Of a DNA stretch of 64,000 nucleotides, positions 8,188-23,445 are shown piece after piece. The stretch spans positions 2,338,692 to 2,402,691 of the forward strand of contig NZ_CP022463.1 in assembly GCF_002224485.1 (NCBI RefSeq). Direction: 5' to 3'. The notes under the pieces are model-generated. The model was not told the DNA's origin. It ran no database searches and saw nothing but the letters and a program-made list of their open reading frames with translations. Source of the stretch: Sinomonas sp. R1AF57. Its GTDB lineage: Bacteria > Actinomycetota > Actinomycetes > Actinomycetales > Micrococcaceae. A program made the translations under genes and the position numbers. Every line of letters begins with the position of its first letter. Position 1 is the stretch's first letter.

Positions 8188-9009
8188 GTGACGGACTCCC
8201 TCGTGGACCACTACGCCGGCTCGGGCGACCTCACTTCTGCGATTGCGGCGGCGCTGGATGCTGCTGGCATCGAGCGGGAGGGCATTGCGACGACGGTCCT
8301 CGCCCCGGTCGACGAGTTCCACATCCGCGGCCGGACCGCGACGCTCGAGATGGCCCGCGCACTGCGGGTGGACGCCACGTCACGGGTGCTCGACATCGGC
8401 AGTGGGCTGGGCGGCCCTGCCCGGACCATCGCCGAGGCCACGGGCGCCCACGTGACAGGGGTCGACCCCACGCCCGCCTTCTCCGCTGCGGCTGCCGACC
8501 TCTCGGCGTGGACCGGCCTGGGCGGGAAGACGGCCTTCCTCGTGGGGGACGCCACGGCCTTGGACTTCCCGGATGCCCACTTCGACGCGGCGCTCACCGT
8601 GCACGTGGGCATGAATGTCGCCGACAAGCCGGCCATGTACCGCTAGGCGCGCCGGGTCCTGGCACCGGGGGCCCGATTCGTCGTGTACGACGTCCTGCAG
8701 GGGCCCGGAGACGAGGTCCACTACCCGGTTCCATGGGCCCGGGACAGTGCGACCAGCTTCCTCGCCTCCCCTGACGAAATGGCGGCATTCCTCGGCGGCG
8801 CCGGGTTCACCATCGTCGGCCAGGCCGACTCTTCGGCCGAGAGCCTCGCATGGTTCGAGACGATGGCCGCGCGCCTTGCGGAGTCGGGTGGGCCCCCGGT
8901 GACGTTCGCGACCTTCCTCGGCAGCGACTTCGGGGACATGACGCGCAATCAGGTCGCGAACCTGCGCGAGGAGCGGATCCGGACCGTTACCTTCGTCTGC
9001 GAGGCGTGA
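8188..9009 (+). pseudogene. Class I SAM-dependent methyltransferase interrupted by an in-frame TAG
   Basis: Reading from the GTG at 8188 gives a methyltransferase with the SAM-binding motif VLDIGSGLGGPARTIAE (about residues 68-85), acidic GVDPT, and the DFPDAHFDAA motif. Codon 153 (8644-8646) is TAG. The same frame continues without further stops to 9009, starting ARRVLAPGARFVVYDVL, which is the expected next strand of the Rossmann fold. A single GAG-to-TAG change would restore MYREARRVLAPG, so this is a one-base nonsense mutation or a base-call error. A TAGAAT box six bases before the GTG suggests a leaderless transcript. It ends 29 bp before attL and was convergent with ychF before the element inserted. 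Confidence 0.85.
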
Positions 9010-9024: not shown

Positions 9025-9048
9025 CTAGACGTTGAAGCGGAACTCGAC
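9025..9048 (-). other. attL: 11-bp core (9038-9048) plus the displaced original 3' end of ychF
   Basis: On the minus strand 9048 to 9025 reads GTC GAG TTC CGC then TTC AAC GTC TAG, i.e. V-E-F-R-F-N-V-stop. This is the usual YchF C-terminus (VEFRFNV). The resident ychF, 13 kb away, shares GTC GAG TTC CG and then diverges. The stranded codons next to the integrase therefore identify the chromosomal half of the attachment site. The integrase gene starts 45 bp further right, as expected for attP adjacent to int. Confidence 0.9.
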
Positions 9049-9093
9049 AGAGTTGCCTAGCTGCGCAACCTGCTGCGGCGTAGCCTTGACGGT

Positions 9094-10443: not shown

Positions 10444-10483
10444 GGCCGCGCGCGCCTGGAGCTGAGGCCGCGCGCACCTGGAG
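10434..10483 (+). repeat. 22-bp tandem repeat across the integrase stop codon
   Basis: Two copies of a 22-bp unit (CTGGAGCTGAGGCCGCGCGC plus two bases) at 10434-10455 and 10456-10477, differing at one base, followed by a partial CTGGAG. The TGA stop of the integrase is inside the first copy. Role unknown. Confidence 0.8.
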
Positions 10484-10676
10484 GGCGGCTGCCGTCTCCT
10501 CAGCAGGCCCAGCGCGCTCCCCCGGCTACACCCGTACCCGCAGCCCCACCCCCGCGAGCCCGGCGGAGATCTGAGATCGCCTGCTCGGCGCTTTCGCCGA
10601 CGCCTCACCCCCGGCTCCGGCCTCGCTGAGCGAGTCCGAACGCCTCAGGGCAGCTACTAGCGACAGCACGCTAACC

Positions 10677-10713
10677 GAGAGTATAACTCTCACGTCAGGA
10701 TGTTTGTCCTGAC
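10677..10713. promoter_or_regulatory. Two adjacent palindromes, candidate operator/promoter of the rightward small-gene operon
   Basis: GAGAGT-ATA-ACTCTC (10677-10691) is a perfect 6-bp-arm palindrome with an AT centre. Two bases later GTCAGGA-N6-TCCTGAC (10694-10713) is a perfect 7-bp-arm palindrome. They lie 30-66 bp before the GTG of the first gene of the operon, in the least GC-rich part of this gap. The TATAAC at the centre of the first palindrome could be a -10 box, which would make the palindromes repressor sites. No repressor gene is recognisable in the element. The rest of 10484-10676 shows nothing further. Confidence 0.55.
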
Positions 10714-10742
10714 ATAGGCAACTGAATCTGGAGCTGATCCCC

Positions 10743-11147
10743 GTGACCACGTATCTGCAGAACATCACGATCTACGAGCCCTCCACTGGCGCCCTTCGCA
10801 CCGCCGCAGGCGTCCGCCGGGCCGACACCGTCCATCGCATCAAGGAGCTCGGTGGCGATCACGAGGAATTTCTCGTCGACGTCGTGAAGGGCGAGCCTGA
10901 GCGCCGTGCCCCCTGGACCTCGAAGAGCGGCAACACCGTCGTCGTGTTCCAGCCTCAGCGTGAGGACCCCCGCAACGAGTGGGAGCCGGAGCCTGGGGCG
11001 GTGGGCGGCGCCACGACCGCGAACACGAAGCGCTTCCGCTGCACCGAATGCGGCCGCGAGTCGAACGCGGGCGGGCTGGCGCTCCACCACAAGGCGTCCG
11101 GCCACTCGGGCTCCGTCCCCGTCGTCGCCGCTGAGGCTGAGGCGTGA
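10743..11147 (+). CDS. Small protein with a C-terminal C2H2-type zinc-binding motif
   Basis: 134 aa, GTG start with GGAG nine bases upstream. The N-terminal 80 residues look like a compact alpha/beta fold (ITIYEPSTGALRTA, HEEFLVDVVKGEPERRAPW, NTVVVFQPQ). Near the C-terminus FRCTECGRESNAGGLALHHKASGH holds Cys-X2-Cys and two His spaced as in a C2H2 finger. First of five genes whose ends overlap or nearly touch; the next start overlaps its stop by 4 bp. Function unknown; a DNA-binding role is a guess from the finger. Confidence 0.75.
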   Translation: MTTYLQNITIYEPSTGALRTAAGVRRADTVHRIKELGGDHEEFLVDVVKGEPERRAPWTSKSGNTVVVFQPQREDPRNEWEPEPGAVGGATTANTKRFRCTECGRESNAGGLALHHKASGHSGSVPVVAAEAEA

Positions 11148-11422
11148 GCGGCGTGCCGCGCCTGAGCCGTATGGCGCGCCTCACGGTCACCGACCCGACC
11201 GTGAGGCTGCCGCGTCGGCCTCGCCGCTCCCCTGAGCGCCACCCCGACGACACCGTCACGATCACTGTCGACGCCACCGTGATGCGGGTCGCTAAGCGCC
11301 TCGCGGGGGGCGACCTCGCCCGACTGATCATCCTGCACGACGGCGCTGTCGTCGTCGCCAACTCCCCCGAACACCGCAGGGCGCTGAGCGCCCGGCTCAC
11401 CCAGAGGACTGACCCATCATGA
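11144..11422 (+). CDS. Hypothetical protein, second gene of the element's rightward operon
   Basis: 92 aa, starting by a 4-bp ATGA/GTGA-type overlap with the previous stop, which implies translational coupling. The first 35 residues are Arg/Pro-rich and basic (RLPRRPRRSPERH); the remainder (DTVTITVDATVMRVAKRLAG, ARLIILHDGAVVV) has beta-alpha character. No recognised domain. Confidence 0.65.
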   Translation: MSGVPRLSRMARLTVTDPTVRLPRRPRRSPERHPDDTVTITVDATVMRVAKRLAGGDLARLIILHDGAVVVANSPEHRRALSARLTQRTDPS

Positions 11423-11799
11423 CCACCCTCACGCTGACCCGCACGCAGGTTCGCTGCCTGAGGAGGCTCGCGCAGGCGGGCAAGGACGCCTGGAGCGCCG
11501 TCGAGGAGGCGAAGGACGCGGCCCGAGCCGCCCAGTCGAGGCTGGACAGCGGTGGCGACGCCTTCGCGGTCGCCCACTTCGACCGAGCGACCAAGGCGCT
11601 CACCACCTTCCAGGCGGTCGCGGACACGGCGGTGTTCGCGCTGTTCACGCTCACCGAGGACGACGACCTCAGGGCTCGCACGCTCATCGCCTCAGCGCGC
11701 ACGGGCGACCTCCACGAGGCGCTCTACGACGGACGCCTGGAGCGGGCTGAGGGCGGCACGTACCGGCTCGCCCTCGAAGTGCTGGAGGCGGCGCGATGA
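11419..11799 (+). CDS. Hypothetical helical protein, third gene of the rightward operon
   Basis: 126 aa, start overlapping the previous stop by 4 bp. Almost entirely helical by composition, with Ala/Arg/Glu-rich stretches (WSAVEEAKDAARAAQSRL, FDRATKALTTFQAVADTA). No known motif. Overlaps the next start by 4 bp. Confidence 0.65.
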   Translation: MTTLTLTRTQVRCLRRLAQAGKDAWSAVEEAKDAARAAQSRLDSGGDAFAVAHFDRATKALTTFQAVADTAVFALFTLTEDDDLRARTLIASARTGDLHEALYDGRLERAEGGTYRLALEVLEAAR

Positions 11800-12002
11800 G
11801 CGCGCGGTTCCGTCCAGGCCAGCTCATCGTCGTTGCGTACGGGGGCGGCAACGTGCTCATGGTGCGCGGCGTCGAGGAGCTATTCGGCAGCGAGGTGTAC
11901 GTACTCGTGAGCGCGGGCTGCGACGACGAGTTTCGCCGTCCGGTCGAGCTCATAGACCGCCGCTTCCAGATGGTGATCAGCGATGACATGTGGCCCAACT
12001 GA
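11796..12002 (+). CDS. Hypothetical small protein, fourth gene of the rightward operon
   Basis: 68 aa, ATG overlapping the previous stop by 4 bp. It begins FRPGQLIVVAYGGGNVLMVRGVEE, a beta-rich pattern reminiscent of small SH3-like barrels, and resembles in layout the fifth product (RKGDVFAVYGVTYLATG), so the two may share a fold. Function unknown. Confidence 0.65.
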   Translation: MSARFRPGQLIVVAYGGGNVLMVRGVEELFGSEVYVLVSAGCDDEFRRPVELIDRRFQMVISDDMWPN

Positions 12003-12012
12003 GGGGCGGGGC

Positions 12013-12219
12013 GTGAGCGCCCGCACGATCCGGAAGGGCGACGTGTTCGCGGTCTACGGCGTCACGTACCTCGCTACGGGGGACGCCCGTGAGGCCTCAC
12101 GCGGGGGCACGGCGATAGCGGTGCTCGACGGCGACGGCGGGGGGCTGCTCTTCGTGCCTGAGCGGCTGACGGTCGATCGGGTGGCGCCTGAGGCTGAGGG
12201 TCGCGCGCCGCCCGCGTGA
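12013..12219 (+). CDS. Hypothetical small protein, last gene of the rightward operon
   Basis: 68 aa from a GTG at 12013, preceded by a purine-rich GAGGGGCGGGG. An upstream ATG at 11983 would add ten residues inside the previous gene and is less likely. Beta-rich: IRKGDVFAVYGVTYLATG, GTAIAVLDGDGGGLLFVP. The stop codon TGA (12217-12219) is the first three bases of a 33-bp tandem repeat. Confidence 0.6.
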   Translation: MSARTIRKGDVFAVYGVTYLATGDAREASRGGTAIAVLDGDGGGLLFVPERLTVDRVAPEAEGRAPPA

Positions 12220-12282
12220 GGTGCCCGCTGGCGGTCCTCTGGCTCCGGCTGAGGTGCCCGCTGGCGGTCCTCTGGCTCCGGC
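12217..12282 (+). repeat. 33-bp tandem repeat, two perfect copies
   Basis: The 33-bp unit beginning TGAGGTGCCCGCTGGCGGTC occurs at 12217-12249 and exactly again at 12250-12282, followed by TGAGGGCTCC. The first copy contains the stop of the preceding gene. The rest of the 12220-12652 gap holds only the terminator at 12578 and no convincing gene. Confidence 0.9.
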
Positions 12283-12577
12283 TGAGGGCTCCGCGACGGC
12301 TGGAATCGCTTTGTCACATTCGTCGAGGAGGAGCCGGAGACGCCCTACTGACCGCTCCAGGCGTGGGCGTAGCATTGCCGCCGTGAGGAGGGGGGCTGCT
12401 GGTCGGGGTGACGTAGGCGGGTGGGCGCGGTGAGGCCGCCGATTCCCCCGGGATCAGGCTGAGCGGCTCCCCTCCCCCTCAGCGCCGAGGGCGGCGTGGG
12501 AACGAGCGAGTTCCCTCATCCAGCGTGTCTCGGTGGAAGCGTGACCGCGTCGCCCTCGGCACCCCTCCAGGCGTAGC

Positions 12578-12609
12578 GAAGCCCCGGTCCACTGGAAAAC
12601 CGGGGCTTC
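12578..12609. terminator. Bidirectional terminator between the element's two convergent operons
   Basis: Perfect 11-bp arms GAAGCCCCGGT (12578-12588) and ACCGGGGCTTC (12599-12609) with a 10-nt loop. It lies between the rightward operon ending at 12219 and the leftward operon ending at 12653. There is no long T-run, as is usual in high-GC actinobacteria. Confidence 0.8.
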
Positions 12610-12652
12610 ACTCGTCCTACCGTCGCGGGGAGATGCACCGCTGGGTAGGGGC

Positions 12653-12808
12653 TCAGTCGGCGCGGCGCGGGTGGAAGCGCTCGAACAGAGCGCGCCCGGC
12701 GTCGATACCCTCCGACTCGTGCTCCTCGTCCTCACGCTCGGCGTCACCCTCACGCGGGCGGGGGTGCGTCTCGTAGTAGAGGGCGCGCCCCTCCTCGACC
12801 CCGCTCAT
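12653..12808 (-). CDS. Small acidic hypothetical protein
   Basis: 51 aa, ATG at 12808 overlapping the stop of the upstream gene by 4 bp. Two similar segments (EEGRALYYETHPRPREGD and DAGRALFERFHPRR) flank an acidic stretch (EREDEEHESEG), so it looks like an internal duplication of a G-R-A-L-[YF]-x2-[TF]-H-P-R motif. Short, but supported by coupling and the internal repeat. Last gene of the leftward operon. Confidence 0.6.
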   Translation of the reverse strand: MSGVEEGRALYYETHPRPREGDAEREDEEHESEGIDAGRALFERFHPRRAD

Positions 12809-13053
12809 GCGAAGTTCACCTGAGCGTTGAGCTCGGACACGAGCGCGTTCGCCGCGTTCAGCTCGGCCTGCGCGCGGTTCACGGCGTCGGCCTGCGTGTC
12901 GACGGTGGCCTGCGTCGGGGTGGTGCCGGCGATGAAGGCAGCCCGGAGCGTCGAGCGAAGGCTGTCCTTCGCGGTCTGCAGTGTGGTGGCTGCCGTAGCG
13001 GCCCACGCTGCCGCTCGGCCAGCAGCAGCGGTGAGGGTGGCCTTGTCTTCCAT
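12805..13053 (-). CDS. Small Ala/Thr-rich helical hypothetical protein
   Basis: 82 aa, starting MEDKATLTAAAG, with heptad-like spacing of small and hydrophobic residues to the end (VNRAQAELNAANALVSELNAQV), suggesting a coiled coil. A ribosome site (AGAGAGGAACCCAAACC) precedes the ATG. Coupled by a 4-bp overlap to the next gene. Function unknown. Confidence 0.6.
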   Translation of the reverse strand: MEDKATLTAAAGRAAAWAATAATTLQTAKDSLRSTLRAAFIAGTTPTQATVDTQADAVNRAQAELNAANALVSELNAQVNFA

Positions 13054-13068
13054 GGTTTGGGTTCCTCT

Positions 13069-14112
13069 CTAGCGATTGACGAAGGGGACTGTGTGGCGGA
13101 AGGCCGGTCGGCCCTGCGCCCGCTCAGGCGGCAGCGGCGGTGCCCCGGCGCTCAGGTAGCCGGTCACGTCCTCCAGGCGGTGGAGCCAGCGGATACCGGC
13201 CTCAGCGTCACGGGGGCTGAGGGCGTTCCCCTCGGTGGTGAAGTTCGCCTGCTCGTAGGCGGTGGTCAGCTGCTCGATGCTGGGCAGCCACGGCGTGGCC
13301 CGGCTGACGATGAGCGCGAGCGCCCGGGCCTGATCGGCGACGCTGCCCGACGGCAGAGGGGCGAGCCACGTGAGGGCATCGAGCACCGGCTCGCCGGGGC
13401 GGGTCAGCCAGCCCCTCAGGGCGTGCTGCTCCTTGGACAGCCGGCCGAGGTCATGCGGCCAGCGCCCCTGCGCCACCCGGCGGTCGAGCCATGCCCGCTC
13501 ACGGTCGATGAAGTCGGCCACCTGACCGGCGACGAGGTACATACGCTGACCGTGGTCGGTGCCCCGTGAGGTGCACGCCGCGCGCACCAGCGCCCGCTGG
13601 ACGGCCCGAATGGCCGAGTAGCGAGCGGTGAGGGCGTCAGCGTCGCGCAGCAGCTGAGCGGCGGCGGGGTCATGCAGGGCCGAGTCGGCGTTGAGTACCC
13701 GCAGCGCGGTGGCGCGCTCACGCACGGCGGCGACGGTCTCGTCCAGGTGAGGGCGCAGCCAGCCCAGCCCGGCGTCAGCGCCGTGCTCCAGGGCGGCGGC
13801 CTGCCGCGCCTTCGCGTCAGCGAGGAACTGGCCGGCCATCTGAAGCGACTGCGCCAGATCGTACCCGGCGTGCTCCCCCTCACGCACCCGGCGCGGCAGG
13901 TCGAGCGGGAAGGGCTGGCCGGCCGAGGCCGCAGCGCGCAGCTCAGCCTGAGGGTCGAGTGGGGCCGGGGGCGGCGTCTCGCGAAGCGCCCTCATCCATT
14001 CCACAGCGATGGCGACGTCGCGTGAGGCAGCGTCGTACCCGGGCACGTGCGAGTAGGCGGCTGCCGTGAGGTCGGCGGTCGGCACCGCGAAGTCGAGGGG
14101 TGTGGCGGTCAT
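13069..14112 (-). CDS. Hypothetical helical protein (347 aa)
   Basis: Start ATG overlaps the preceding stop by 4 bp. Composition is Ala/Arg/Leu-rich and predicted largely helical over its whole length, with conserved-looking aromatic pockets (AVEWMRALRETPP, GWLRPHLDETVAAVRERATAL, RALVRAACTSRGTDHGQRMYLV). No signal peptide, membrane segment, Walker or nuclease motif seen. It is the longest unassigned gene in the element. Phage scaffold or portal proteins do not obviously match. Confidence 0.7.
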   Translation of the reverse strand: MTATPLDFAVPTADLTAAAYSHVPGYDAASRDVAIAVEWMRALRETPPPAPLDPQAELRAAASAGQPFPLDLPRRVREGEHAGYDLAQSLQMAGQFLADAKARQAAALEHGADAGLGWLRPHLDETVAAVRERATALRVLNADSALHDPAAAQLLRDADALTARYSAIRAVQRALVRAACTSRGTDHGQRMYLVAGQVADFIDRERAWLDRRVAQGRWPHDLGRLSKEQHALRGWLTRPGEPVLDALTWLAPLPSGSVADQARALALIVSRATPWLPSIEQLTTAYEQANFTTEGNALSPRDAEAGIRWLHRLEDVTGYLSAGAPPLPPERAQGRPAFRHTVPFVNR

Positions 14113-14315
14113 GAGCGTGTTCCTTCCGTGAACAGCAGCGCGGCGATCCGGTCGAGCTGCTCGGGGCTGAGGCGAACCTCGGCCAGCGTGTGGGTCAGGA
14201 ACTGCTCGATCTTCGCCGCTGCGAGCGCGGCGCGGGCATCGGCCTCAGCCTCAGGGTCATGGCGGCGAACCGCCACGCCGACGAGCGACCTTGCCTTCGC
14301 GACTTCGGTGGACAC
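14109..14315 (-). CDS. Small hypothetical protein, paralogue of the product of 21475-21774
   Basis: 68 aa, GTG start at 14315 with GGAGGAAGGGAG upstream. The pattern EVAKARSLVGVAVRRHDPEA then ALAAAKIEQFL then LSPEQLDRIAALLF is matched in the product of 21475-21774 (EVSRARSVVAVAS; LAEAKIARFV; LTPEAADRIAALML). I recall small proteins of this type from actinophages and prophages, with no known function. Confidence 0.7.
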   Translation of the reverse strand: MSTEVAKARSLVGVAVRRHDPEAEADARAALAAAKIEQFLTHTLAEVRLSPEQLDRIAALLFTEGTRS

Positions 14316-14552
14316 CGAGGGCTCCCTTCCTCCGATGGAAACGAGAGCAAGGCTACCGCTTAGACCCGAGGTGGGGGTAATCGCGTCAGGCGCCAGCGGC
14401 GCGGGTAAGCATGGGGTGTGGTGCGTCTCGGCTTCCCCCCAAGCCGGGGCGCACCCGTCTGAGGCTCAGCGTGGGAGTCGTGCTCAGCCTCGGCAGGTCT
14501 CCTGCCTGCGAGCTGGCAGCACCAAGCGGATACGGGCGTACCCTCCGACGCC

Positions 14553-15017
14553 TCAGCGGCGCTCAGCGCGGCGACGGACGACCCGGGCGCGGGCCTCGGC
14601 CAGCCGGTCGGCGAAGGGGATCGCGTCCTTCTGCGCCTTCAGGTCGGCGATGCGCTGGACGAGCTCTTCGCGGCGGCGGCTCAGCGCGGGAACCTCACGC
14701 GGCAGGGCCCGGCTCAGGGCGGTCATGACTAGGCGATAGTCCTCACGGGCGTCCGTGAGGGGGTTGGGGTCGGACGCGTCATCGCCGGGCGTGAGGGGGA
14801 GGTCCGCCACGGGGGCAAGCCTCACCGCGCTGCCGAGCCGGCGAGCGTCGTCGGCCCGGGCGCGGGCCTTCTGCGCCCTGACCCTGCGCTTCCGCTGGCG
14901 CTCCAGGCTGGCCTCCTTGTTGGCGCGGGCACACAGATCATCGACCGGCTCGCCGCGACGGCGGTGGCGGTCATACGCGGCGGGCGTACCGCAAGGGGCT
15001 AGCCTTCGCTCGCTCAT
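14553..15017 (-). CDS. Basic hypothetical protein with an N-terminal CGTPAAYDRHRRRGE motif
   Basis: 154 aa, ATG with GAGGAAGG upstream. The start LAPCGTPAAYDRHRRRGE followed by a second Cys (DDLCARANK) is a pattern common in small actinophage proteins (CGTxxAYxRHxRxGE). A long basic helix follows (RQRKRRVRAQKARARADDARR), and the C-terminus is again helical. Probably nucleic-acid binding by charge; function unknown. A 237-bp gap to the next leftward gene shows no other feature. Confidence 0.65.
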   Translation of the reverse strand: MSERRLAPCGTPAAYDRHRRRGEPVDDLCARANKEASLERQRKRRVRAQKARARADDARRLGSAVRLAPVADLPLTPGDDASDPNPLTDAREDYRLVMTALSRALPREVPALSRRREELVQRIADLKAQKDAIPFADRLAEARARVVRRRAERR

Positions 15018-15645
15018 CGGTGCTCACCTTCCTCGATCAGGGCCTGCATTCAAAGCCTAGGCCGGTAGGCGTATCGGGGGGTTGAAGTCTGGACTTGCGC
15101 GGATCCGCTAAGCCCGGAAGGCGGGCAGCTCATCGGGGGGCCGGGGGCTACGGGGGGTAGGGTGACCCGGCTTCGCTGCGCCTTCGCCGCGCCCGCCATC
15201 GGCCTTCGCCGTTGCCCCGTCGTTCGGTTCCTCGTTCACTCGGCTCATCGTTCGTTCGCGCGCTCGTATCGTTCGGTTCGTCGGTTCGTTCGGCTTCGCC
15301 TCAGCCGCGCGACCTTCGGTATAGGCCTCGTGCCTCCAGGTCTTCAGCCGCTCAGCCTCACCCCGAGCCGCCCGATACCCGGCTCAGCCTGCCCCGCTCA
15401 GCCTTGGCGCCGCGACGTGAGCCCGGCGTCGAGGTGGTGGCTTCGAGGTGGTGCGACTGAGCCTGGAGCGACTGCGACTGAGCGACTGAGCCTGGAGCAG
15501 TGAGCACCTGGAGCAGTGAGCACCTGGAGCAGTGAGCGACTGAGGCTGAGCGCTGAGCGGCTGAAGGCTGAGCGCCTTGGGCTGAGCGACTGAGCCTGAG
15601 CCTGAGCAGCCACGGTCAGCCACCCCCTGCCCTCCGGGTAGACCC
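15018..15645. repeat. Non-coding repeat-rich region inside the element
   Basis: No convincing gene in 628 bp. At 15221-15292 the hexamer CGTTCG recurs about five times, including two copies of CGTTCGGTTC (15221-15230, 15270-15279). At 15491-15538 a 16-bp unit (CCTGGAGCAGTGAGCA) is present three times in tandem, within 15440-15605 where GAGC and TGAG repeat almost continuously. Open frames here are low-complexity. This may be a second protein-binding or replication-related site; there is no direct evidence for either. Confidence 0.6.
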
Positions 15646-15969
15646 TCACTCACCCACCCCCTCACCCCGGCTGCCGCACCCGGGGTAGCCGCCACGAGGT
15701 ACCCGGGGCGGCTCGTCCAGAACCCGGCCGATAGCGTCGATCAGGGCGAGGGCGTTAGCCCGAGTGAGGGTCAGCCTCACGACGTCGTTGACCGTGACCG
15801 CTACACCCCCGGCGGGCTCACCTATCCCCCGGGGCGGCACGATTGCTGCCCGGATCGCGCCTACCTCGGCTGCCGTGATGCGTCCATACTCATGAGGGGC
15901 GGTCACATGCACATTCCTAAGCGGTTTCGTCCACGCCCGGGCCGGATCGTCTCGGAACACCCGGCTCAC
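15646..15969 (-). CDS. Hypothetical protein, leftward operon of the element
   Basis: 107 aa, GTG start overlapping the upstream stop by 4 bp. An Arg/Thr-rich N-terminus leads into ITAAEVGAIRAAIVPP and VVRLTLTRANALALIDAIGRVL; the C-terminal 20 residues are Gly/Arg-rich and look disordered. No domain recognised. Confidence 0.6.
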   Translation of the reverse strand: MSRVFRDDPARAWTKPLRNVHVTAPHEYGRITAAEVGAIRAAIVPPRGIGEPAGGVAVTVNDVVRLTLTRANALALIDAIGRVLDEPPRVPRGGYPGCGSRGEGVGE

Positions 15970-16511
15970 CGCGTGCCGTCCTCTGGTGCTACCTCGTCGG
16001 TCTCCGGCCTGACCTCCTCGGTCAGCCTCAGCTGGTACGGACGGTTCGGGGGTGGGCAGTGAGGCACTCGCTGGCCGAGGTCGCCGCTCAGGTCAAGGCC
16101 ACCGCTGCCGTGAGCGTGGAGGCCACCGCAGTAGGGGCACCGAACCGTCAGCAGCCAGTGCGACTCGTGGCGGCTTCGCCGTGCCGCCCGGAGGACGGGG
16201 GCGGTGGGCGCGTACTGGGGAAGGCCGGCACCCGGCGTGTCCTCGGGCCTGAGGGAGCCAGGCCACCACAGCCCCTCCCGCCACTCGATCCACCCTAGGG
16301 CCTCTGCTCGGTCGATCATTGCCTCAGCCGGCACCTGTACGACCACTGAGCGGGGGCGACGAGCGACCGGCCTGAGGCTGGCGGTGGAGCGACCGCCTCC
16401 GTGGCCACGGGCGTAGTGGAACACCGCCTCCCACACGGCGTGGGCTCCGAGCGCCGTCTGGTACTCCCATGCGTGGGCGCGGGCAGCGCCCTCCGCGATC
16501 TCAGCCTTCAT
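15966..16511 (-). CDS. Hypothetical protein with a CPYCGGLHAHG zinc-binding motif
   Basis: 181 aa from ATG at 16511, preceded by GAGGAGGACCACC; a start at 16604 would lie far inside the upstream gene. The middle contains RAEALGWIEWREGLWW, like the end of the product of 17418-17999 (HAEAEGWIEWDDDGERW), so both may share a small winged-helix-like module. Near the C-terminus RCPYCGGLHAHG plus HCPPP suggests zinc coordination. This CPYC-GG-H pattern is frequent in actinophage hypotheticals. Function unknown. Confidence 0.65.
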   Translation of the reverse strand: MKAEIAEGAARAHAWEYQTALGAHAVWEAVFHYARGHGGGRSTASLRPVARRPRSVVVQVPAEAMIDRAEALGWIEWREGLWWPGSLRPEDTPGAGLPQYAPTAPVLRAARRSRHESHWLLTVRCPYCGGLHAHGSGGLDLSGDLGQRVPHCPPPNRPYQLRLTEEVRPETDEVAPEDGTR

Positions 16512-17421
16512 GGTGGTCCTCCTCGGGGGTTGGGTTGTGTAGGCGTGATTCGCGAGCCTGCGGAGACTCTGCCGAGCGTGAGGGGGACTTCTGGCAGAAC
16601 TCACAGCCGGGCTTCCGGATGCCGCGATTGGTATGCCACCGGGTGTGGCGTCCGCGCTCCAGGGCCTCGTCTACGCGCGCGCGGAATTCAGGATCAGCCC
16701 ACTGTGCCTTCGCGGATTCGCTGATCCGCGCCCGATACTCAGGGGCGGTCCAATTGGCCTTCGATGCCTCGCTGAGCCGCGCCCGCACCGCAGGGTCTGC
16801 CATCTGGGCCCTCGCGGCTTCTCGCATCCGCGCGCGGTGCTCGGGGTCAGTCCACAAGGCCTTCGATGCCTCACTGATCCGTGCCCGGTACTCAGGGGCG
16901 GTCCAATTGGCCCTCGCGGCTTCGCTCTGCCGTGCTCTCGCCTCGGGGTCGGCCCACATGGCCTTTGAGGCCTCGCTGACTCGCTCGCGGGACTCAGGGC
17001 GGCTCATTGCCTCCCCGATCGCCTTTGTGAGCTTCTCCTTCGCCTCGGGGTCGGCCCACATGGCCTTGGCGCGGGCGCTTCGCCGTGCCCGCTCTACGGC
17101 GGTCACCTCACGCGTCGTGCTCCGCGCCACCGTGTTCAGATTCACGTCCGGGTACTCGGCGCGTGACCGCGCTATCCACTCGGCCTCAGCGTCATCCATC
17201 GACGCGCCCTCGGGCACCTCGTGAAGGGTGACTGCGACTACTGACTCGATACCCGCCTCGCGCATCCAGGTGTGGACGGGCTGCGTGGATCCGGCGCGGG
17301 CCGTCCCCCGGTGGCCGCTCAGCCGCCCTGCGATACCCGCCTTGCTCTGCCCGACGTAGCGGATCACGCCGTCGCCACCGTGCAGGCCGTAGATCACTCC
17401 AGGGCCAAGCCGCCCGCTCAC
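16501..17421 (-). CDS. GIY-YIG nuclease with a C-terminal array of NUMOD-like repeats
   Basis: 306 aa from a GTG at 17421 that overlaps the upstream stop by 4 bp. The first ~90 residues form a GIY-YIG domain: GVIYGL (8-13), RYVGQS (21-26), Arg33 and His37 in GRLSGHR, and a later Glu and NLN. Residues ~110-260 contain six or seven ~16-17-residue repeats of the form [SR]EA[SA][KR]A-x-[WM]-[AT]-D/A-PE-x-RAR, resembling NUMOD3 modules of homing endonucleases, which bind DNA. The C-terminus has a Cys pair (CEFC). No intron or intein is visible, so it is a free-standing GIY-YIG gene; it could process the element's DNA or attack a competitor's. Confidence 0.85.
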   Translation of the reverse strand: MSGRLGPGVIYGLHGGDGVIRYVGQSKAGIAGRLSGHRGTARAGSTQPVHTWMREAGIESVVAVTLHEVPEGASMDDAEAEWIARSRAEYPDVNLNTVARSTTREVTAVERARRSARAKAMWADPEAKEKLTKAIGEAMSRPESRERVSEASKAMWADPEARARQSEAARANWTAPEYRARISEASKALWTDPEHRARMREAARAQMADPAVRARLSEASKANWTAPEYRARISESAKAQWADPEFRARVDEALERGRHTRWHTNRGIRKPGCEFCQKSPSRSAESPQARESRLHNPTPEEDHHEG

Positions 17422-17999
17422 TTCGACGCCCCCTTCTTGGTCAGGATCCAGCGCTCCCCGTCGTCGTCCCACTCGATCCAGCCCTCGGCTTCGGCGTGCC
17501 GGATGCCTGGCGCCATGAAGCGGTCGCTGAGCCCGGCGCCAGCGAGGGCGCGCCGGTAGCACTCGTCATCATCGGTAAAGTCCGGCCCCGGGTGCTGGGC
17601 CTCGGCGTGAGCCCTGGCTGCGGCGAGGACGGCGCGTCCGGCCTCTGGGGCCCACTTCTCCTGGGCCTGGGCTCGGGTCAGGCCTTCACGCTCGGCGCGC
17701 TGTTCCCACTTGGGGCGACGCCGAAGCCAGCGGGCCCGGTAGCGGCGCGCCATATCCTCCGTGTCGCTGTCCTCAGTGTCCACGGACGGGTCAATCACCG
17801 CTCCCGTGAAGCCGACACCAGCCTCGACTGCCGAGCACACCCGCCCGTCAATGGGGGACACAACGGCGGGGTGGATGCTATGGCCCATCTGGATCCAGCC
17901 GGCGATGTCCCGCCACTCGTCCTTATCCGGCCGCGCGGGCTCATGAGCGAACAGGGCGCGCCAGCCGGGCGCGGCGGGGGTGAACTTCTCAATGGACAT
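17418..17999 (-). CDS. Hypothetical protein next to the candidate origin
   Basis: 193 aa, ATG with AAGGAGAG upstream. The N-terminal part (APGWRALFAHEPARPD; GRVCSAVEAGVGFTGAVID) is unassigned; a basic middle (ARRYRARWLRRRPKWEQR) and a C-terminal module ending EGWIEWDDDGERWILTKKG look winged-helix-like and resemble part of the product of 15966-16511. It is the first gene downstream of the iteron region. A DNA-binding function is plausible but unproved. Confidence 0.65.
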   Translation of the reverse strand: MSIEKFTPAAPGWRALFAHEPARPDKDEWRDIAGWIQMGHSIHPAVVSPIDGRVCSAVEAGVGFTGAVIDPSVDTEDSDTEDMARRYRARWLRRRPKWEQRAEREGLTRAQAQEKWAPEAGRAVLAAARAHAEAQHPGPDFTDDDECYRRALAGAGLSDRFMAPGIRHAEAEGWIEWDDDGERWILTKKGASK

Positions 18000-18045
18000 G
18001 GTGCTCTCCTTCTACGGGTTGGCTGGGGTGTACTGGCTGCACGGG

Positions 18046-18372
18046 GGTACCCTCCGGGGTTCGGGGTACCTGAGTGGGGGTACCGCCCCAGTTCCCGACA
18101 TCTGCTCGGGGGTACCCGGGGTACCGGGGGTACCGAGGGGGTGGGGCAGGTGCAACACCCTCACGCCCGCCCATATAAATAGATAGATAGAATTGTTGAT
18201 TTTCTAACGCGCGAGCTGAGGCGCGCTGAGGGCGTGGGGGTACCCGACCGGTACCCCAGGTACCCCCGATACTTCCCGAGGCCTGCTCGGTTCTTGGGCG
18301 GGTACCCCCCATCAGGTGTTTCGGGTACCCCCCGCCGCATCCCGAGGCCTGCTCGGTTTTGGGGCGGGTACC
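18046..18372. other. Candidate replication origin: twelve GGTACC sites around an AT-rich core
   Basis: GGTACC occurs at 18046, 18065, 18079, 18111, 18120 and 18129, then 18239, 18250, 18259, 18301, 18324 and 18367. Most copies extend to GGGGGTACC or GGTACCCCC, so the left arm is G-rich before and the right arm C-rich after the hexamer. The centre (18171-18210) is strikingly AT-rich for this genome (ATATAAATAGATAGATAG, then AATTGTTGATTTTCTA). Two longer direct repeats (CCCGAGGCCTGCTCGGTT plus about 14 bp ending in GGTACCC) start near 18275 and 18341. Iterons plus an unwinding element beside a primase gene is classic origin architecture, but function is not shown. The 18000-18383 gap has no gene. 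Confidence 0.7.
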
Positions 18373-18383
18373 CTCTGACCCCC

Positions 18384-20765
18384 TCATGCCTTCCCTCCTT
18401 GCCTGCTCGGCTCCGGCTTCGGCTTCGAGGGCCCAAGCAGCCAGCGATTGACCTCGTCGACCTGCTTCTCGATGACCCACTCCTCGTCCTTGGCGAGCTG
18501 CGTCGCCTCGGATCGGAACTCGTCGAAGTGCCTCAGCGCGTGGTAGACGCACCTGTTCGTGCACCCCGCGTCTCGGGTGTGCTTCTGCCGGGGGTTGGGC
18601 TTGTCGGTGTCGGGCTCGCTGTTGGCGTGGTCATGCACAACCTTCCAGATCGCCCTCGCGGCCTTCTCCACCTTCCCGCGCCGATATGCGGCCTCCCCCT
18701 CCTTCCGGACCGCGTCCTCCCGGCCTCGGGCGAGGGTCAGCTTTGCCGCCTCATCCGCCAGCACCCTCAGGCACTCCGCCTGGACCCCCATCGAGCCGCG
18801 CACCAGCACCTCGGCAATGTCCCACCACTGGTCCTTGATCGCCGTGTCCCCGTGGAGCAGCGCCAGCGCCGTGGCAACCTTCAGCTGCGTGAGCAGGCGG
18901 TGGCCCTCCAGGGACCCGGCGTCCTCGCTCAGCAGCCCCGCTCGGCTCGCTCGGAGGTGCTCAGCGCGCACCTCCCTCTTGATGTGCTCGGGGTAGTCGA
19001 TCTCCGCCGGCCACTCATCGGGGTCCGCCCAGTCGAGCGATCCGGGCCACTCGGGCGGCTCGTCGGGGATAGTGGGGTCCTGCGCGCTCACCCACAGCAG
19101 CCGCTGAGGCGTTCCCGCGTCAGCGTCGCGCAGTAGCGCGGCGGCTCGCGTCGGCTGGACCCCGAGCAGCAGCACCAGTCGGTAGGCACCGCCCGGTACG
19201 TGACGCCTCCGCTCCTGGTCTGCGTTGGCGGAGCCGAGCGCGCCGCCGCTGAGCGCCGTGCGGAGGACGGGCCACAGGGTCGAGCCGCTTCGGCTGCCCA
19301 CTGCCGCGATCTGGTCCACCTCGTCGGCGATCATGATCCGCCGGGGGTCTTCGACGAGCACCTTGCGGCCGGTCTTCCTCAGTCCCCCCTGAGGGGTGGC
19401 CACGGTCTCATCCTGGAGGAAGCTCTCCGCAATGCCCTCACCTGAGCCGATGACCCGCTCGATCTCCTGCTGCTCGTCGTAGCCGAGGGGCCCAATCCCC
19501 GCCAGCTCCCGTGACGCTGCCAGCATCGAGGACTTCCCGCGCCCGGCTCGCCCCACAATGGCGACTCCGAGGTTCAGGGGGGCTGGGGCGCCGATGACTG
19601 CGGGCAGCACCACGCCCGGGGGTACCTCAGCCAGCACCCGCGCGAGCACGTAGCACAGCATCGCCGGGGCGCTGAGGGTACGCGAGTGGGCGGCCTGGCG
19701 GATGTGCTGGAGCGTCGGGGTGGCCCACAGGTCCTCCTGATCTGCGTCGGCGAAGTCCTCTGCCGCTGTGGAGCAGCCGCAGCCCTGCTCCTCCTCGGGG
19801 CTCGGGCTGCCCACTACGCCCCCGACCGCACCTGCCACCATTCGCTGGAACTCGCCGTTGTCGCGCCGGTCCCCGTTGAGTGAGGCCGTGAACATCGCCT
19901 CCAGCGTGCCCAGCGCCGTCGGTACCCCCGGGTGACCCTTCTCACCGAGCCTGACCAGCGCCATCGTGCGCGCCAGTGCGACGCCGTGCCGCGAGCCCGC
20001 GCTCGCCTCGCTGTTGAGCCGCAGCTCGGCCTTCTCGAGCTCAGCCTCCACGGCACGGCACGGTTCGCCGTCGGGCAGTGCCCGTAGCCACTCGCCCACT
20101 GCCGGGGTGTCCAGGTCAGCCTTGACAGTGCGGTCGTCAGCCGGGCCACGGTCCAGCTCAGCCGTCCACGCCTCAGGCAGGGTGGGCAGGTCTGCAACAG
20201 CGGGCGGGCCGCACGGCTCACCCTCAGCGTTGTACCACTGGTACTCGCGCTCGGTGTCCGGGTGTACTGACGGCCACACGACCGCGTACCGATGGCCGTG
20301 GTGGATGGTCTCAACACAGCCGCCGCTGAGCTCGCCGGCCCACTGCCTGCCAGCCGGTACCCGATAGAAGCGGATGCCGCTCACGCCTGGACCACGTGAC
20401 GACGAGCGGAAGGTAGGTGGCAGCGCCCCGAGCCGCGCCTCAGCCGCGCTCAGGGTGTCCGCGCCGGACTTCTTGCCGTACTCGTCCACGTCGAGGCCGA
20501 GCACGGTATCCGGCATCCGCAGCGCGATGTTTCTGCGACCGGCACGGCTCCAGGTGGCGACCGTCTCGTCGTCCGGGTATGCGCCGCTGTAGCCGGTGTA
20601 CCCCGAGGGCGGCGCGCTCTTCTTGCCGTAGGGGAGCGTGAGCGTCCCCGCCCAGCCGAGCGCCCGGTAGTCGAGGGCGGCGTCAGCATAGGGGCTGGTC
20701 TTAGTGCCTTGCAGGTGACGCTGCTGGGGGTTCTCGCGCCCATTCGCCGCTTCCTTGTGCGTCAT
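18384..20765 (-). CDS. Bifunctional primase-polymerase with C-terminal P-loop ATPase/helicase domain
   Basis: 793 aa, ATG overlapping the preceding stop by 4 bp. Residues 1-200 match Prim-Pol (PF09250-type): catalytic acidic pair LDVD (91-94), SSRGPGVSGIRFYRVP (122-137), and PSVHP with His168. A linker leads to an ATPase domain with Walker A GRAGRGKSS (405-413) and Walker B RIMIADEVDQ (476-485), then a long helical C-terminus containing a CTNRCVYHAL motif. Such proteins initiate and prime replication of actinobacterial integrative elements, plasmids and satellites. It lies just upstream of the candidate origin. No separate helicase loader or polymerase is present, so the host fork would complete replication. 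Confidence 0.9.
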   Translation of the reverse strand: MTHKEAANGRENPQQRHLQGTKTSPYADAALDYRALGWAGTLTLPYGKKSAPPSGYTGYSGAYPDDETVATWSRAGRRNIALRMPDTVLGLDVDEYGKKSGADTLSAAEARLGALPPTFRSSSRGPGVSGIRFYRVPAGRQWAGELSGGCVETIHHGHRYAVVWPSVHPDTEREYQWYNAEGEPCGPPAVADLPTLPEAWTAELDRGPADDRTVKADLDTPAVGEWLRALPDGEPCRAVEAELEKAELRLNSEASAGSRHGVALARTMALVRLGEKGHPGVPTALGTLEAMFTASLNGDRRDNGEFQRMVAGAVGGVVGSPSPEEEQGCGCSTAAEDFADADQEDLWATPTLQHIRQAAHSRTLSAPAMLCYVLARVLAEVPPGVVLPAVIGAPAPLNLGVAIVGRAGRGKSSMLAASRELAGIGPLGYDEQQEIERVIGSGEGIAESFLQDETVATPQGGLRKTGRKVLVEDPRRIMIADEVDQIAAVGSRSGSTLWPVLRTALSGGALGSANADQERRRHVPGGAYRLVLLLGVQPTRAAALLRDADAGTPQRLLWVSAQDPTIPDEPPEWPGSLDWADPDEWPAEIDYPEHIKREVRAEHLRASRAGLLSEDAGSLEGHRLLTQLKVATALALLHGDTAIKDQWWDIAEVLVRGSMGVQAECLRVLADEAAKLTLARGREDAVRKEGEAAYRRGKVEKAARAIWKVVHDHANSEPDTDKPNPRQKHTRDAGCTNRCVYHALRHFDEFRSEATQLAKDEEWVIEKQVDEVNRWLLGPSKPKPEPSRQGGKA

Positions 20766-21478
20766 GCCTTCACCGCCTTCAGCTCGTCGTCGTCCTTGTC
20801 GAGGTAGTAGAGGAGCGACATAGCGACGTCGTTATCGAAGGCGATTGCCAAGAAGTGAACGTAGATTCCGACGAACAGGTAGCCATGGCCCCGGCCTCTC
20901 GCCCCAGGGTGCGCCCAGTGCGCCAACTCGTGGAGGATAAGCCTCCGGCTGAGCTCGTCAGGGTTGAAGTGTATTGACCCATCACTGTCGTGATACCGCC
21001 CCACAAACGGGAAGTCGTCCTGCGTCATGTCGAACACCAGCGTGGGGCGGTCCGGCTTCGCCAACAGGTATGGGAGGTACGACTGGGCCAGCACGCCGGC
21101 GATGAATCCGGGCGTCCGATCACGCGTGAACGCAGCATTGAGGCGTGGATGCTGCTCAGCCCACACATCCTCAGCGAGGTAGAGGTGGCGGGTGGTTCGC
21201 CGAGCTGCCTCGACGTCAGCATTATGCTCAGCTATGGCCTCTTCCAGGGCCCAGTTACGCTCGGGCTCCGACTCGGCTTCCCTGAGCCACTCCTCTTCCG
21301 CCAGCCTGTAGGCGCCGCCCGACAGATCTGGCGTCTGGCCAGTGACCGACCCCCTCTCAGCCCTCCGAGCTACCCTTGTAGCTGAGGGGTCGACTGAGCG
21401 GTCGTCATTTCCTTCCTTGGTGGAGCCTCGGGACACCGTCCCCGGGGCTCCTCCCCTGTCCGGGGGCGGCTTCTTCAT
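20762..21478 (-). CDS. Putative zinc metallopeptidase (HELAH...GHG)
   Basis: 238 aa, ATG overlapping the upstream stop by 4 bp and its own stop overlapping the primase start. The N-terminal ~55 residues are basic and disordered. The core ends with RRLILHELAHWAH (HExxH, residues 183-187) and GHG (197-199), followed by a helix (YLFVGIYVHFLAIAFD). This arrangement is like the TIGR04338 metallohydrolases of actinobacteria and, more loosely, SprT/IrrE-type zincins. Its tight coupling to the replication gene suggests a role in replication or induction, for example cleaving a regulator, but the substrate is unknown. Confidence 0.75.
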   Translation of the reverse strand: MKKPPPDRGGAPGTVSRGSTKEGNDDRSVDPSATRVARRAERGSVTGQTPDLSGGAYRLAEEEWLREAESEPERNWALEEAIAEHNADVEAARRTTRHLYLAEDVWAEQHPRLNAAFTRDRTPGFIAGVLAQSYLPYLLAKPDRPTLVFDMTQDDFPFVGRYHDSDGSIHFNPDELSRRLILHELAHWAHPGARGRGHGYLFVGIYVHFLAIAFDNDVAMSLLYYLDKDDDELKAVKA

Positions 21479-21774
21479 CGCGCCTCACCGCCGTCCTTCG
21501 GGGCGAGCATCAGGGCAGCGATGCGGTCGGCGGCCTCAGGCGTCAGCGGTGGCGCCTCAGCGACGACCTGCTTCACGAATCGGGCAATCTTCGCCTCGGC
21601 CAGGAAGCGGCGGGCCTCCTCGACCTCCTCCGGCGAGTATCCGGCCTTCTTCGGAGGGTGCTTCATCGAGGCAACGGCGACTACTGAGCGCGCGCGGCTG
21701 ACCTCGGGGTCGTACGGCGTGAGGCGGGAGATACGGTTGAACGGGTTCGCGTGACCAGCTCGGGGTTCGGACAT
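21475..21774 (-). CDS. Small hypothetical protein, first gene of the replication operon, paralogue of 14109-14315
   Basis: 99 aa from ATG at 21774, with GGAAGG about 10 bases upstream; a GTG at 21786 is too close to that site. The motifs EVSRARSVVAVAS, LAEAKIARFV and LTPEAADRIAALML match the 68-aa product of 14109-14315. The N-terminal 30 residues (PFNRISRLTPYD) are absent from that paralogue. Function unknown; overlaps the metallopeptidase start by 4 bp. Confidence 0.7.
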   Translation of the reverse strand: MSEPRAGHANPFNRISRLTPYDPEVSRARSVVAVASMKHPPKKAGYSPEEVEEARRFLAEAKIARFVKQVVAEAPPLTPEAADRIAALMLAPKDGGEAR

Positions 21775-21948
21775 GAGGGACAACACCTTCCGGTGATCGT
21801 CCCCTCTATGACCAGGTGCACGTTTTTCCGAATTTACGCGAGGGGGTGGACTATCGGGGTTCTCCTACGCACCGTCACCCGCCACTCTCGTAGTTGGCGG
21901 GCCGCATGAGCTTCCCGTAGCCGGTATGTGATTCTGCGTACAACCTAA

Positions 21949-21976
21949 CCCTACTCTGCCGAAAGCAGAAGTAGGG
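21949..21976. promoter_or_regulatory. Stem-loop in the promoter region of the replication operon
   Basis: CCCTACTCTGC (21949-21959) pairs with GCAGAAGTAGGG (21965-21976, one bulged base) around a short CGAAA loop. It lies in a 500-bp non-coding gap (21775-22274) between the replication operon and attR, about 175 bp upstream of the first gene. It could be a terminator for transcription entering from the attR side or an operator. The flanking sequence is the most AT-rich part of the gap. Nothing else coding is seen there. Confidence 0.5.
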
Positions 21977-22274
21977 CGGTATTGTCTATCTGGCTAAAAC
22001 ATCGCATCGGTTCCGGCGCTCCGCCTTCACCCTCAGCCGCTCCGCGCATCGTGCGTCAGCGTCGCTCAGCGTTCGCCTGCGTCTCGAACAGCCGACCCCC
22101 GATAAGGGCGTAGCCGGGGCGACCTGGAGCGAGGCCCTGAGGGCTCCCCTCACGCTGGACCCCCTGGAGCCCGAGGGCGAACAGCGGCGGAACGGTGGAC
22201 AGCGGTGCACCGGGGTTCCAGGCTGCGCCTGAGGGCCCGGCCCGCGCTGAGCCCTACAGCCGAGCGCTGCCGAG

Positions 22275-23381
22275 CTATTTGGCCTTGCCGCCTGAGGTTG
22301 TGTTGTGACGGAACTCGACCACGTCGCCGTCGGCCATGACATAGTCCTTGCCCTCGATGCGGACCTTGCCGCGGGACTTGGCCTCGGCCATGGAGCCGGC
22401 CTCGACCAGGTCCTCGAAGTGGACCACCTCGGCCTTGATGAAGCCGCGCTGGAAGTCGGTGTGGATGACACCTGCGGCCTGCGGCGCCGTGTCTCCGCGG
22501 TGGATGGTCCAGGCGCGCGTTTCCTTGGGGCCGGCCGTGAGGTAGGTCTGGAGGCCGAGGGTGTGGAAGCCGACGCGCGCGAGCTGGTCGAGGCCAGATT
22601 CCTCCTGGCCGTTCATCTCGAGCATCTCACGGGCTTCCTCCTCGGAGAGCTCCACGAGGTCGGACTCGAGCTTGGCGTCGAGGAAGATCGCGTCGGCGGG
22701 GGCCACGAGAGCGCGCAGCTCCTCCTGCTTCTCGGGGCTCGTGAGGATGCCCTCGTCGGCGTTGAAGACGTAGATGAACGGCTTGGCCGTGAGGAGGTTG
22801 AGCTCCCTGAGGTGGTCCATGTCGAGCTTGTCGGATGCGATGGACGAGAAGATGGTGTCCCCGCGCTCGAGGACCTTCTTCGCGGCCTCGATCGCGGCGA
22901 GCTCCGCGGCGTCGCGCTTCTTGATCTTGACTTCCTTCTCGACGCGCGGAAGGGCCTTCTCGATGGTCTGGAGGTCGGCGAGGATCAGCTCGGTGTTGAT
23001 GGTCTCCATGTCGGAGCGCGGGTCCACCTTGCCGTCGACGTGCACCACGTCTGGGTCGTCGAAGACCCGGATGACCTGGGCGATGGCCTGGGCCTCGCGG
23101 ATGTTCGCGAGGAACTGGTTGCCGAGCCCCTCGCCCTCGGAGGCGCCCTTGACGATTCCGGCGATGTCCACGAAGGAGACGGTGGCGGGGAGGATGCGCG
23201 CGCTGCCGAAAATCTCGGCGAGCTTGTCCAGACGGGGGTCGGGGAGGCTCACCACGCCGACGTTCGGCTCGATGGTGGCGAACGGGTAGTTCGCCGCAAG
23301 GACCTGGTTGCGGGTCAGCGCGTTGAAGAGCGTCGACTTGCCGACGTTGGGGAGACCGACGATTCCGATAGTGAGAGCCAC
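22275..23381 (-). CDS. ychF: Redox-regulated ATPase YchF (Obg family), C-terminus replaced by the element
   Basis: 368 aa from a GTG at 23381 (VALTIGIVGLPNVGKS, matching the family start); an ATG two codons earlier is possible. G1 motif GLPNVGKST, G3 region VDIAGIVKGASEGEGLGN, and NADE in place of the usual NKxD, which in this family shifts specificity to ATP. The C-terminal TGS domain ends VMADGDVVEFR. The family normally continues FNV-stop; here it reads HNTTSGGKAK-stop, encoded by the integrated element. The original codons are at 9025-9036. The conserved core is intact, so activity is probably kept. Confidence 0.95.
   Translation of the reverse strand: MALTIGIVGLPNVGKSTLFNALTRNQVLAANYPFATIEPNVGVVSLPDPRLDKLAEIFGSARILPATVSFVDIAGIVKGASEGEGLGNQFLANIREAQAIAQVIRVFDDPDVVHVDGKVDPRSDMETINTELILADLQTIEKALPRVEKEVKIKKRDAAELAAIEAAKKVLERGDTIFSSIASDKLDMDHLRELNLLTAKPFIYVFNADEGILTSPEKQEELRALVAPADAIFLDAKLESDLVELSEEEAREMLEMNGQEESGLDQLARVGFHTLGLQTYLTAGPKETRAWTIHRGDTAPQAAGVIHTDFQRGFIKAEVVHFEDLVEAGSMAEAKSRGKVRIEGKDYVMADGDVVEFRHNTTSGGKAK
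22309..22319. other. attR core (CGGAACTCGAC) inside ychF
   Basis: Identical to 9038-9048 and in the same orientation. To the right is chromosomal ychF; to the left is element sequence that supplies the last codons and stop of the gene. Outside the 11 bp the two junctions share no obvious homology, as expected for serine-integrase sites. Confidence 0.9.
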
Positions 23382-23445
23382 GGTCATCCATCATACCGGC
23401 GCGGATCCGGCCAGAAATGTCGGTGGCCCGTGCGAGTGTGGGCGC

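Follow-up and report, generated by a model that had tools for sequence, protein, structure and literature searches.

Mirrored GGTACC iterons 3' of a Prim-Pol/MCM-like helicase gene: a likely replication origin of an actinobacterial integrative element and its widespread relatives

Introduction

The origin of a classical theta-type iteron plasmid consists of direct repeats in a single orientation beside an AT-rich region. A design closer to the one considered here is found in the PICIs, where two sets of iterons surround an AT-rich region 3' of the initiator gene (PMC6092414; this and the other published systems are drawn on here from extracts of the papers cited), and for SaPI Rep and Cch2 two hexamers have been proposed (PMC7581432). 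A further class of candidate initiators joins a Prim-Pol domain to an MCM-like helicase. Such proteins occur frequently in the phages and integrative elements of actinobacteria (170 proteins among the candidates that we scored, and 267 phage records), and the literature surveyed, as far as the extracts extend, yielded no defined origin for them.

In this study, we analysed a stretch of 64,000 nucleotides from Sinomonas sp. R1AF57 (contig NZ_CP022463.1), referred to throughout as the window. An initial annotation had singled out a cluster of GGTACC hexamers beside a Prim-Pol gene as a candidate origin and regarded such a design as unusual. The cluster departs from the classical theta arrangement in that its copies lie on both sides of a core and in mirrored orientation. 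It shares the two-set layout of the PICIs, with six and six copies around a core that holds a 40-mer of 72.5% AT. The design is not, in fact, without precedent, since it belongs to a widespread family and since the PICIs have two iteron sets around an AT-rich region (PMC6092414).

Results

An integrative element with its own Prim-Pol/helicase gene

The cluster lies in an integrative element (Table 1) inserted at the 3' end of ychF (22275-23387), which is its attachment site; the present ychF end reads ...EFRHNTTSGGKAK. To the left of the same attachment core, the sequence is different in two further genomes of the genus (L222, L223), which suggests that other elements occupy this site there. 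An origin of the host chromosome was set aside, as a search of 14 other genomes from the genus recovered no copy of the Prim-Pol and the element is equipped with attachment sites of its own. Adjoining the element at 8188-9009 is a SAM-methyltransferase-like gene with an in-frame TAG (8644-8646) and a frame that is open on both sides of it.

Ten element ORFs each were scanned against Pfam and PHROGs, some small ORFs lying outside the scan, and among those scanned we recognised no partition, terminase or similar protein, no FtsK/Tra (FtsK/SpoIIIE-type) gene and no match to terminase, AlpA or interference functions. The minus-strand ORF at 16501-17562 encodes a protein that contains many short repeats and is GIY-YIG-like (Pfam score below cut-off); in PHROGs it matches a homing endonuclease (E 8.5e-5). 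Immediately upstream of the Prim-Pol gene, with a 4-bp overlap, 20762-21478 (minus strand) encodes a protein with a HELAH motif. This protein presumably resembles a zinc-peptidase-type regulator, and neither Pfam nor PHROGs gave a match within the thresholds applied. Across the cluster from the Prim-Pol gene lies a 193-aa ORF that had been offered in the initial annotation as a possible binder of the repeats. This is unlikely, and the candidate was set aside: the protein search returned only the query itself, no Pfam family scored above cut-off, and we think that the ORF is not part of the mechanism.

Table 1. Coordinates of the element, the iteron cluster and the neighbouring genes within the window
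Feature	Coordinates	Strand	Remarks
Integrative element	9038..22319	.	13.28 kb; bounded by the 11-bp repeat CGGAACTCGAC
11-bp bounding repeats	9038-9048 and 22309-22319		
Serine recombinase (integrase) gene of the element	9094..10443	+	
193-aa ORF	17418..17999	-	far side of the cluster; no homologue detected
Left half-set	18043..18134	.	GGTACC starts 18046, 18065, 18079, 18111, 18120, 18129; distal to the Prim-Pol gene
Core between half-sets	18135..18238	.	104 bp; predicted melting region
AT-richest 40 bp of the segment	18173..18212	.	72.5% AT; contains the GATA repeat
Right half-set	18239..18372	.	GGTACC starts 18239, 18250, 18259, 18301, 18324, 18367; adjoins the Prim-Pol gene
Two 45-nt direct repeats	18263-18307, 18329-18373 (span 18263..18373)	+	87% alike
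Prim-Pol/MCM-like helicase gene	18384..20765	-	793 aa; likely initiator
C-terminal helix-helix-strand-strand domain	18429..18563	-	about residues 735-779; predicted iteron-binding winged helix
MCM-like AAA+ domain	18762..19724	-	residues 348-668
Prim-Pol domain	20202..20678	-	residues 30-188; PF09250

The Prim-Pol gene, we infer, encodes the replication initiator of the element. Its ATPase domain has the MCM fold of an MCM-like AAA+ helicase, and D92, D94, K411, E482 and R555, which we take to be the catalytic residues, are invariant across 55 aligned homologues. The C-terminal domain of a relative is predicted to adopt a winged-helix fold, and it was with this relative's domain that the match was obtained. 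The C-terminus of the window protein itself belongs to a divergent subclass, KH..GCTxxC, whose members are the window protein, L007, L010, L013, L015 and L018, with L017 a looser member, and whose alignment to the main (RDR) class described below is uncertain.

A mirrored cluster of twelve iterons

Recounting confirmed that twelve GGTACC hexamers fall within 327 bp (18046-18372), six on each side of the 104-bp core. As had been noted, the cluster borders the Prim-Pol gene: it lies directly 3' of it, the last GGTACC being 11 bp from the end of the ORF. The AT-rich stretch of about 40 bp with a GATA repeat was likewise recovered, as the 40-mer at 18173; it stands within a core of 42% AT overall, and only 6 of the 63,960 40-mers of the window are equally AT-rich. 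The claim of a mirrored six-plus-six design held for the number of copies and for the left half, where the longer flanking tract is on the G side in 6/6 copies. On the right, it is on the C side in only 4/6, on the G side at 18239 and even at 18367, so that the flank mirror is clear though imperfect. Each of the two 45-nt direct repeats terminates in an outer iteron of the right half-set.

The window contains 22 GGTACC in total, compared with a mean of 8.3 (sd 2.9, maximum 16) in 100 dinucleotide shuffles, and in 100 shuffled versions of the window three copies was the most that any 327 bp contained. A motif of three closely spaced copies is unique to the cluster across the 3.94-Mb genome. The longer word GGGGGTACC occurs 29 times in the genome, 8 times in the cluster, twice within the Prim-Pol gene and 19 times elsewhere, where it is unclustered.

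Mirrored clusters downstream of related genes

Prim-Pol/helicase loci were found in 3 of 295 genomes of the family (the source genome included), and 80 were kept from 101 matches in named genomes; sets of 9 and 72 viral contigs and 10 phage regions supplied further loci, and two wider searches matched 25/394 and 14/396 genomes. The expanded set comprised 215 loci, with the gene obtained in 192, 171 unique C-termini and 161 with enough sequence for analysis.

In a first round, an 8-mer was over-represented within 600 bp past the stop codon in 44/87 loci (p 0.005, the lowest value attainable with 200 shuffles), and in 33/87 (32 of them within the 44) the downstream 8-mer exceeded that of all other 600-bp windows of its own locus. 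The word itself varies: it is GGGGGTACC in the window and GGGGTGGACA, GGGGTGTACA, GGGTAGGAC, GGGGGTTGGAA, TGGGGGCC, GGTTTGCTGG and others in relatives. Along the gene strand, the common order is forward, forward, reverse, followed after about 100 bp by forward, reverse, reverse. A strict search for this order (FFR, 55-150 bp, FRR; any 8-mer, at most one mismatch) found it in 22/97 downstream regions, against 0/1940 shuffles and 0/5943 other windows of the same loci, and a looser mirror definition was satisfied by 33/97 regions, against 1/1940 shuffles and 18/5943 control windows. Over the expanded set, the strict form occurred in 41/161 unique regions (0/7540 control windows), and either the mirror or the strict form in 66/161 (21/7540 control windows); the mirrored layout was absent in the other 95 of the 161 loci.

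The 41 strict loci use 30 distinct 8-mers around cores of 81-147 bp (median 104), and the core is AT-richer than its own locus in 40 of them. Their proteins fall into 25 clusters at 50% identity and 35 at 70%. A Pfam Prim-Pol domain shares the ORF in only 14 of the 41 genes, and DUF3987, predicted to be a helicase (PMC5862659), is present in 27; for this reason we conclude that the layout follows the helicase/C-terminal part of the gene. The gene after the cluster varies among relatives. Read along the gene strand, the window cluster has the pattern FFR, 102 bp, RRR, with three extra copies outside each half. It falls under the mirror definition rather than the strict form, its inner right copy being R and not F, and is an expanded variant of this widespread family. 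Two relatives from its own subclass lend little support, as the repeats of L010 differ between the two sides and L013 has none.

Inspected by eye, five of the ten phage regions have such repeats (Hibiscus, prophiGD05-1, DelRio, TPA4, WheatThin) and five do not (Zakhe101, REQ1, Fury, Butterscotch, Zion). The last four of these match the window protein in the Prim-Pol part only, and Zakhe101 matches it in both parts.

Other arrangements were also seen. In L079 and L087 (Promicromonospora), the word TGCCAGGGCTG is arranged as RFF, 40 bp, RRRF, with a short core, perhaps a second geometry. In L078 (Mycobacterium alsense), nine copies of CCGAAACA/TGTTTCGG lie within 600 bp downstream of the gene; the layout search found no mirrored layout among them, and the motif presumably recalls the repeats of cluster O mycobacteriophages. 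L034 (Nocardia brevicatena) has eleven exact copies of GGTAGGAC in the 600 bp downstream, with several changes of orientation and no single core.

Covariation between the iteron word and the C-terminal domain

We compared distances between iteron words with distances between parts of the protein at 44 loci, the words having been entered by hand from consensus lines and the comparison being, to that extent, hand-set. Iteron distance correlated with the C-terminal 70 residues (rho 0.29, 0/500 permutations) and equally with residues 601-720, the long helical part that precedes the C-terminal domain (rho 0.287, 0/500). The correlation was lower for the helicase (rho 0.21, 8/500) and absent for the linker (rho 0.06, 78/500) and for the Prim-Pol domain (rho -0.04, 330/500, from 370 comparable pairs as against 933).

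The C-termini of many relatives contain a motif xRDR, and from the first set of loci we recorded a rule before adding more: the iteron has GTGGAC where x is S or G, and GTGTAC where x is Y, H or A. Residue tables were called by script. In the first set, S/G occurred with GGAC in 10/10 and the other residues with GTAC in 5/6, 2 loci being uncalled. Among the new loci, all 12 called cases with S/G had G (4 more uncalled), and 3 of the 4 with other residues had T (1 more uncalled); among these others, A was found twice with T and once with G, and K, which is absent from the recorded rule, once with T. The rule recorded in advance therefore held in 15/16 called new loci. Over all 61 called loci, whatever the remainder of the motif, S/G accompanied 42 G and 1 T, and other residues 4 G and 14 T (Fisher 1.9e-9).

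Independent pairs were taken on a helicase tree built without the C-terminus. In 14 pairs the base differed, and of these 11 were concordant, none was discordant and 3 showed no residue difference; among 19 same-base pairs, the residue class still differed in 3. An unguided scan of 407 aligned columns placed the residue before RDR (720 of L054) first, with z 13.2 and the next column at 5.3. This residue stands at the start of the third helix of the predicted C-terminal winged helix. For the base two positions upstream, the strongest association was with residue 723, again first of 407 (z 11.0, next 6.9), a second letter that was found post hoc. At 56 called loci, T there goes with R in 34/34 and G with K in 11/17, and among 7 independent T/G pairs 4 differ R/K as expected, 2 have the same residue and 1 has another.

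L015, L034, L089, L150 and L177 are exceptions to the code. Within the KH..GCTxxC subclass, given its uncertain alignment, the window (H, T) and L018 fit the rule and L015 (N, G) does not. Because this subclass aligns uncertainly to the RDR class, the correspondence, as read from aligned sequences, is demonstrated in the relatives and not for the window protein.

Several subclasses are recorded here in their own right. Seven GRDK proteins (L148, L151, L154, L162, L164, L167, L202) have iterons of the GGGGGAC type, with K for R and G for T, and cores of 122-127 bp in L148, L151, L162, L164 and L167; L173 and L177 (GRDK) and L170 and L171 (SRDK) have other words. Proteins with ATLR, SELR, SDLK or SDKR (L034, L055, L094, L206) are paired with AGGAC words, a hint that the code may have another letter.

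Discussion

In this study, we sought to account for a cluster of short repeats beside a replication gene. The reading of the initial annotation, an origin with iterons for the Prim-Pol protein, is the best supported, because relatives hold mirrored clusters built from other words and because the word changes in step with the end of the protein that is predicted to bind DNA. We consider it highly probable that the segment is the replication origin of the 13-kb element; the predicted reader of its GGTACC iterons is the Prim-Pol/helicase that the element itself encodes, acting through its C-terminal winged helix. That the iterons are sites for this protein appears very likely from the conserved layout 3' of the gene, which persists while the words vary, and from the covariation between residue and base.

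One alternative is that the origin is recognised by shape, the inverted halves extruding a long stem-loop that the Prim-Pol protein would read as proposed for pRN1, with the hexamers merely forming the stem. In support of this, the strand folds better than all 100 shuffles (z -4.64), the cluster contains inverted arms of 22 to 31 nt, and the pRN1 origin, which occupies the same place relative to its Prim-Pol gene, is a stem-loop with poor sequence conservation (PMC4234260). Good folding is, however, expected of any mirrored iterons. Recognition of shape also does not predict that single residues should track single bases of the iteron. The copies recur as short words in a fixed order of orientations, with words that differ between loci, and we regard this alternative as unlikely.

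The repeats could instead be an operator array, for instance repressor sites that regulate the 193-aa gene or the Prim-Pol operon and have no part in replication. The cluster does lie just upstream of the 193-aa ORF, on its strand. Yet the gene that follows the cluster differs from relative to relative and the 193-aa protein has no relative, whereas the layout stays with the helicase gene in 66/161 loci; the word varies together with the helicase C-terminus, and an operator would need no AT-rich core of about 100 bp between mirrored sets. Regulation as the function of the cluster is thus very improbable. Clustered short repeats also serve as partition centromeres or packaging sites, and the cluster resembles such sites to this extent, but no partition or terminase protein was recognised (10 ORFs in Pfam, 10 in PHROGs) and the covariation is with a replication protein, so that we give this possibility hardly any credence. 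Chance or simple-sequence drift, for which it might be said that GGTACC with G or C tracts arises easily in a genome of 70% GC, is refuted by the shuffles, by the uniqueness of the three-copy pattern in the genome and by relatives that share the layout with other words.

If the cluster is an origin, replication could proceed as follows. Once the element has excised, the winged helix would attach the protein to each half-set, and the opposed half-sets would load two MCM-like rings that face each other across the core. Melting of the AT-rich stretch by these rings would open the strands on which the Prim-Pol domain would prime, allowing copying in both directions. We infer head-to-head loading from the symmetry of the cluster and, by analogy, from SaPI Rep and Cch2, for which two hexamers have been proposed (PMC7581432). 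A Thermus element that lacked its Ppol still replicated (PMC7693054), which speaks against a general need for Prim-Pol in copying.

Taken more broadly, the loci probably represent a large, previously undescribed class of origins in actinobacteria and their phages, with two opposed pads of three iterons (FFR, about 100 bp of AT-rich sequence, FRR), a Prim-Pol/MCM-like initiator, and an iteron that can be read in part from two residues at the beginning of the recognition helix. If this is so, element origins and the compatibility of initiators would be predictable from sequence, and the conserved geometry together with the code would make the origins of these elements open to test. The class would show how an initiator can switch to a different recognition word and still keep its origin. 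For hosts with few vectors, it would be a source of small, self-contained replicons. The head-to-head placing of MCM rings is otherwise studied in archaea and eukaryotes, and here a single bacterial protein would provide a model for it.

Several described systems share parts of this design. The NrS-1 phage PrimPol also starts DNA synthesis at short template motifs (TTTGGTTA, GTG), but there recognition is attributed to a helix bundle beside the Prim-Pol domain, acting on single strands, in place of a C-terminal winged helix on duplex iterons (PMC8718748). For PolpTN2, the Prim-Pol of plasmid pTN2, origin recognition by a C-terminal winged helix has been proposed; the proposal is a speculation for another Prim-Pol family and, in the extracted text, comes with no iterons or code (PMC5862659). 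ORF904 of pRN1 likewise unites Prim-Pol, helicase and C-terminal winged helix in one protein, and its origin, better conserved in shape than in sequence, is just 3' of the gene; it differs in being an archaeal plasmid with an SF3 helicase and one stem-loop without iterons (PMC4234260). The window, by comparison, has twelve iterons where pRN1 has a single large stem-loop, though its strand folds well.

Actinomycete ICEs with a Prim-Pol are, like the present element, actinobacterial integrative elements with an integrase and a Prim-Pol replication gene (PMC3218068). They have an FtsK/SpoIIIE-type transfer protein, which had no match among the element ORFs scanned, and an origin with a layout of the FFR/FRR type is not described in the portion of that paper drawn on (PMC3218068). 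In the Prim-Pol AICEs the next gene is SCO4618-like or RepAM; here the next ORF encodes 193 aa without homologue or Pfam family. In SCCmec, the mobile-element helicase Cch2 uses its C-terminal domain to bind short repeats that lie immediately downstream of the gene encoding it, and it is on this DNA that a primase starts (PMC7581432). This system differs in its host (Staphylococcus), its separate primase-polymerase and its three short iterons in a 23-bp direct-repeat region, and mirrored halves are not described in the extracts of that source (PMC7581432).

The PICI and SaPI origins remain the nearest, lying, as here, directly 3' of the initiator gene (PMC6092414, PMC7581432). Whole PICIs are defined by their gene set and by induction and packaging through a helper phage; the present element is small and has an integrase and a primase-helicase and, in ten ORFs each by Pfam and PHROGs, no terminase, AlpA or interference match. 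C-terminal iteron binding of the PICI type may occur here as well, as covariation in relatives and a predicted winged helix suggest, the window's own subclass aligning poorly. The setting differs, in that the present family inhabits actinobacteria and their phages and has an MCM-like helicase, with a Prim-Pol on the same ORF in 14/41 strict cases, and a fixed FFR/FRR order and a residue-base code are not described for PICIs or SaPIs in the extracts cited, the primary SaPI origin papers aside. Altogether, the family is an origin of the PICI kind in a new setting, and what is new is that setting, the FFR/FRR geometry and the code.
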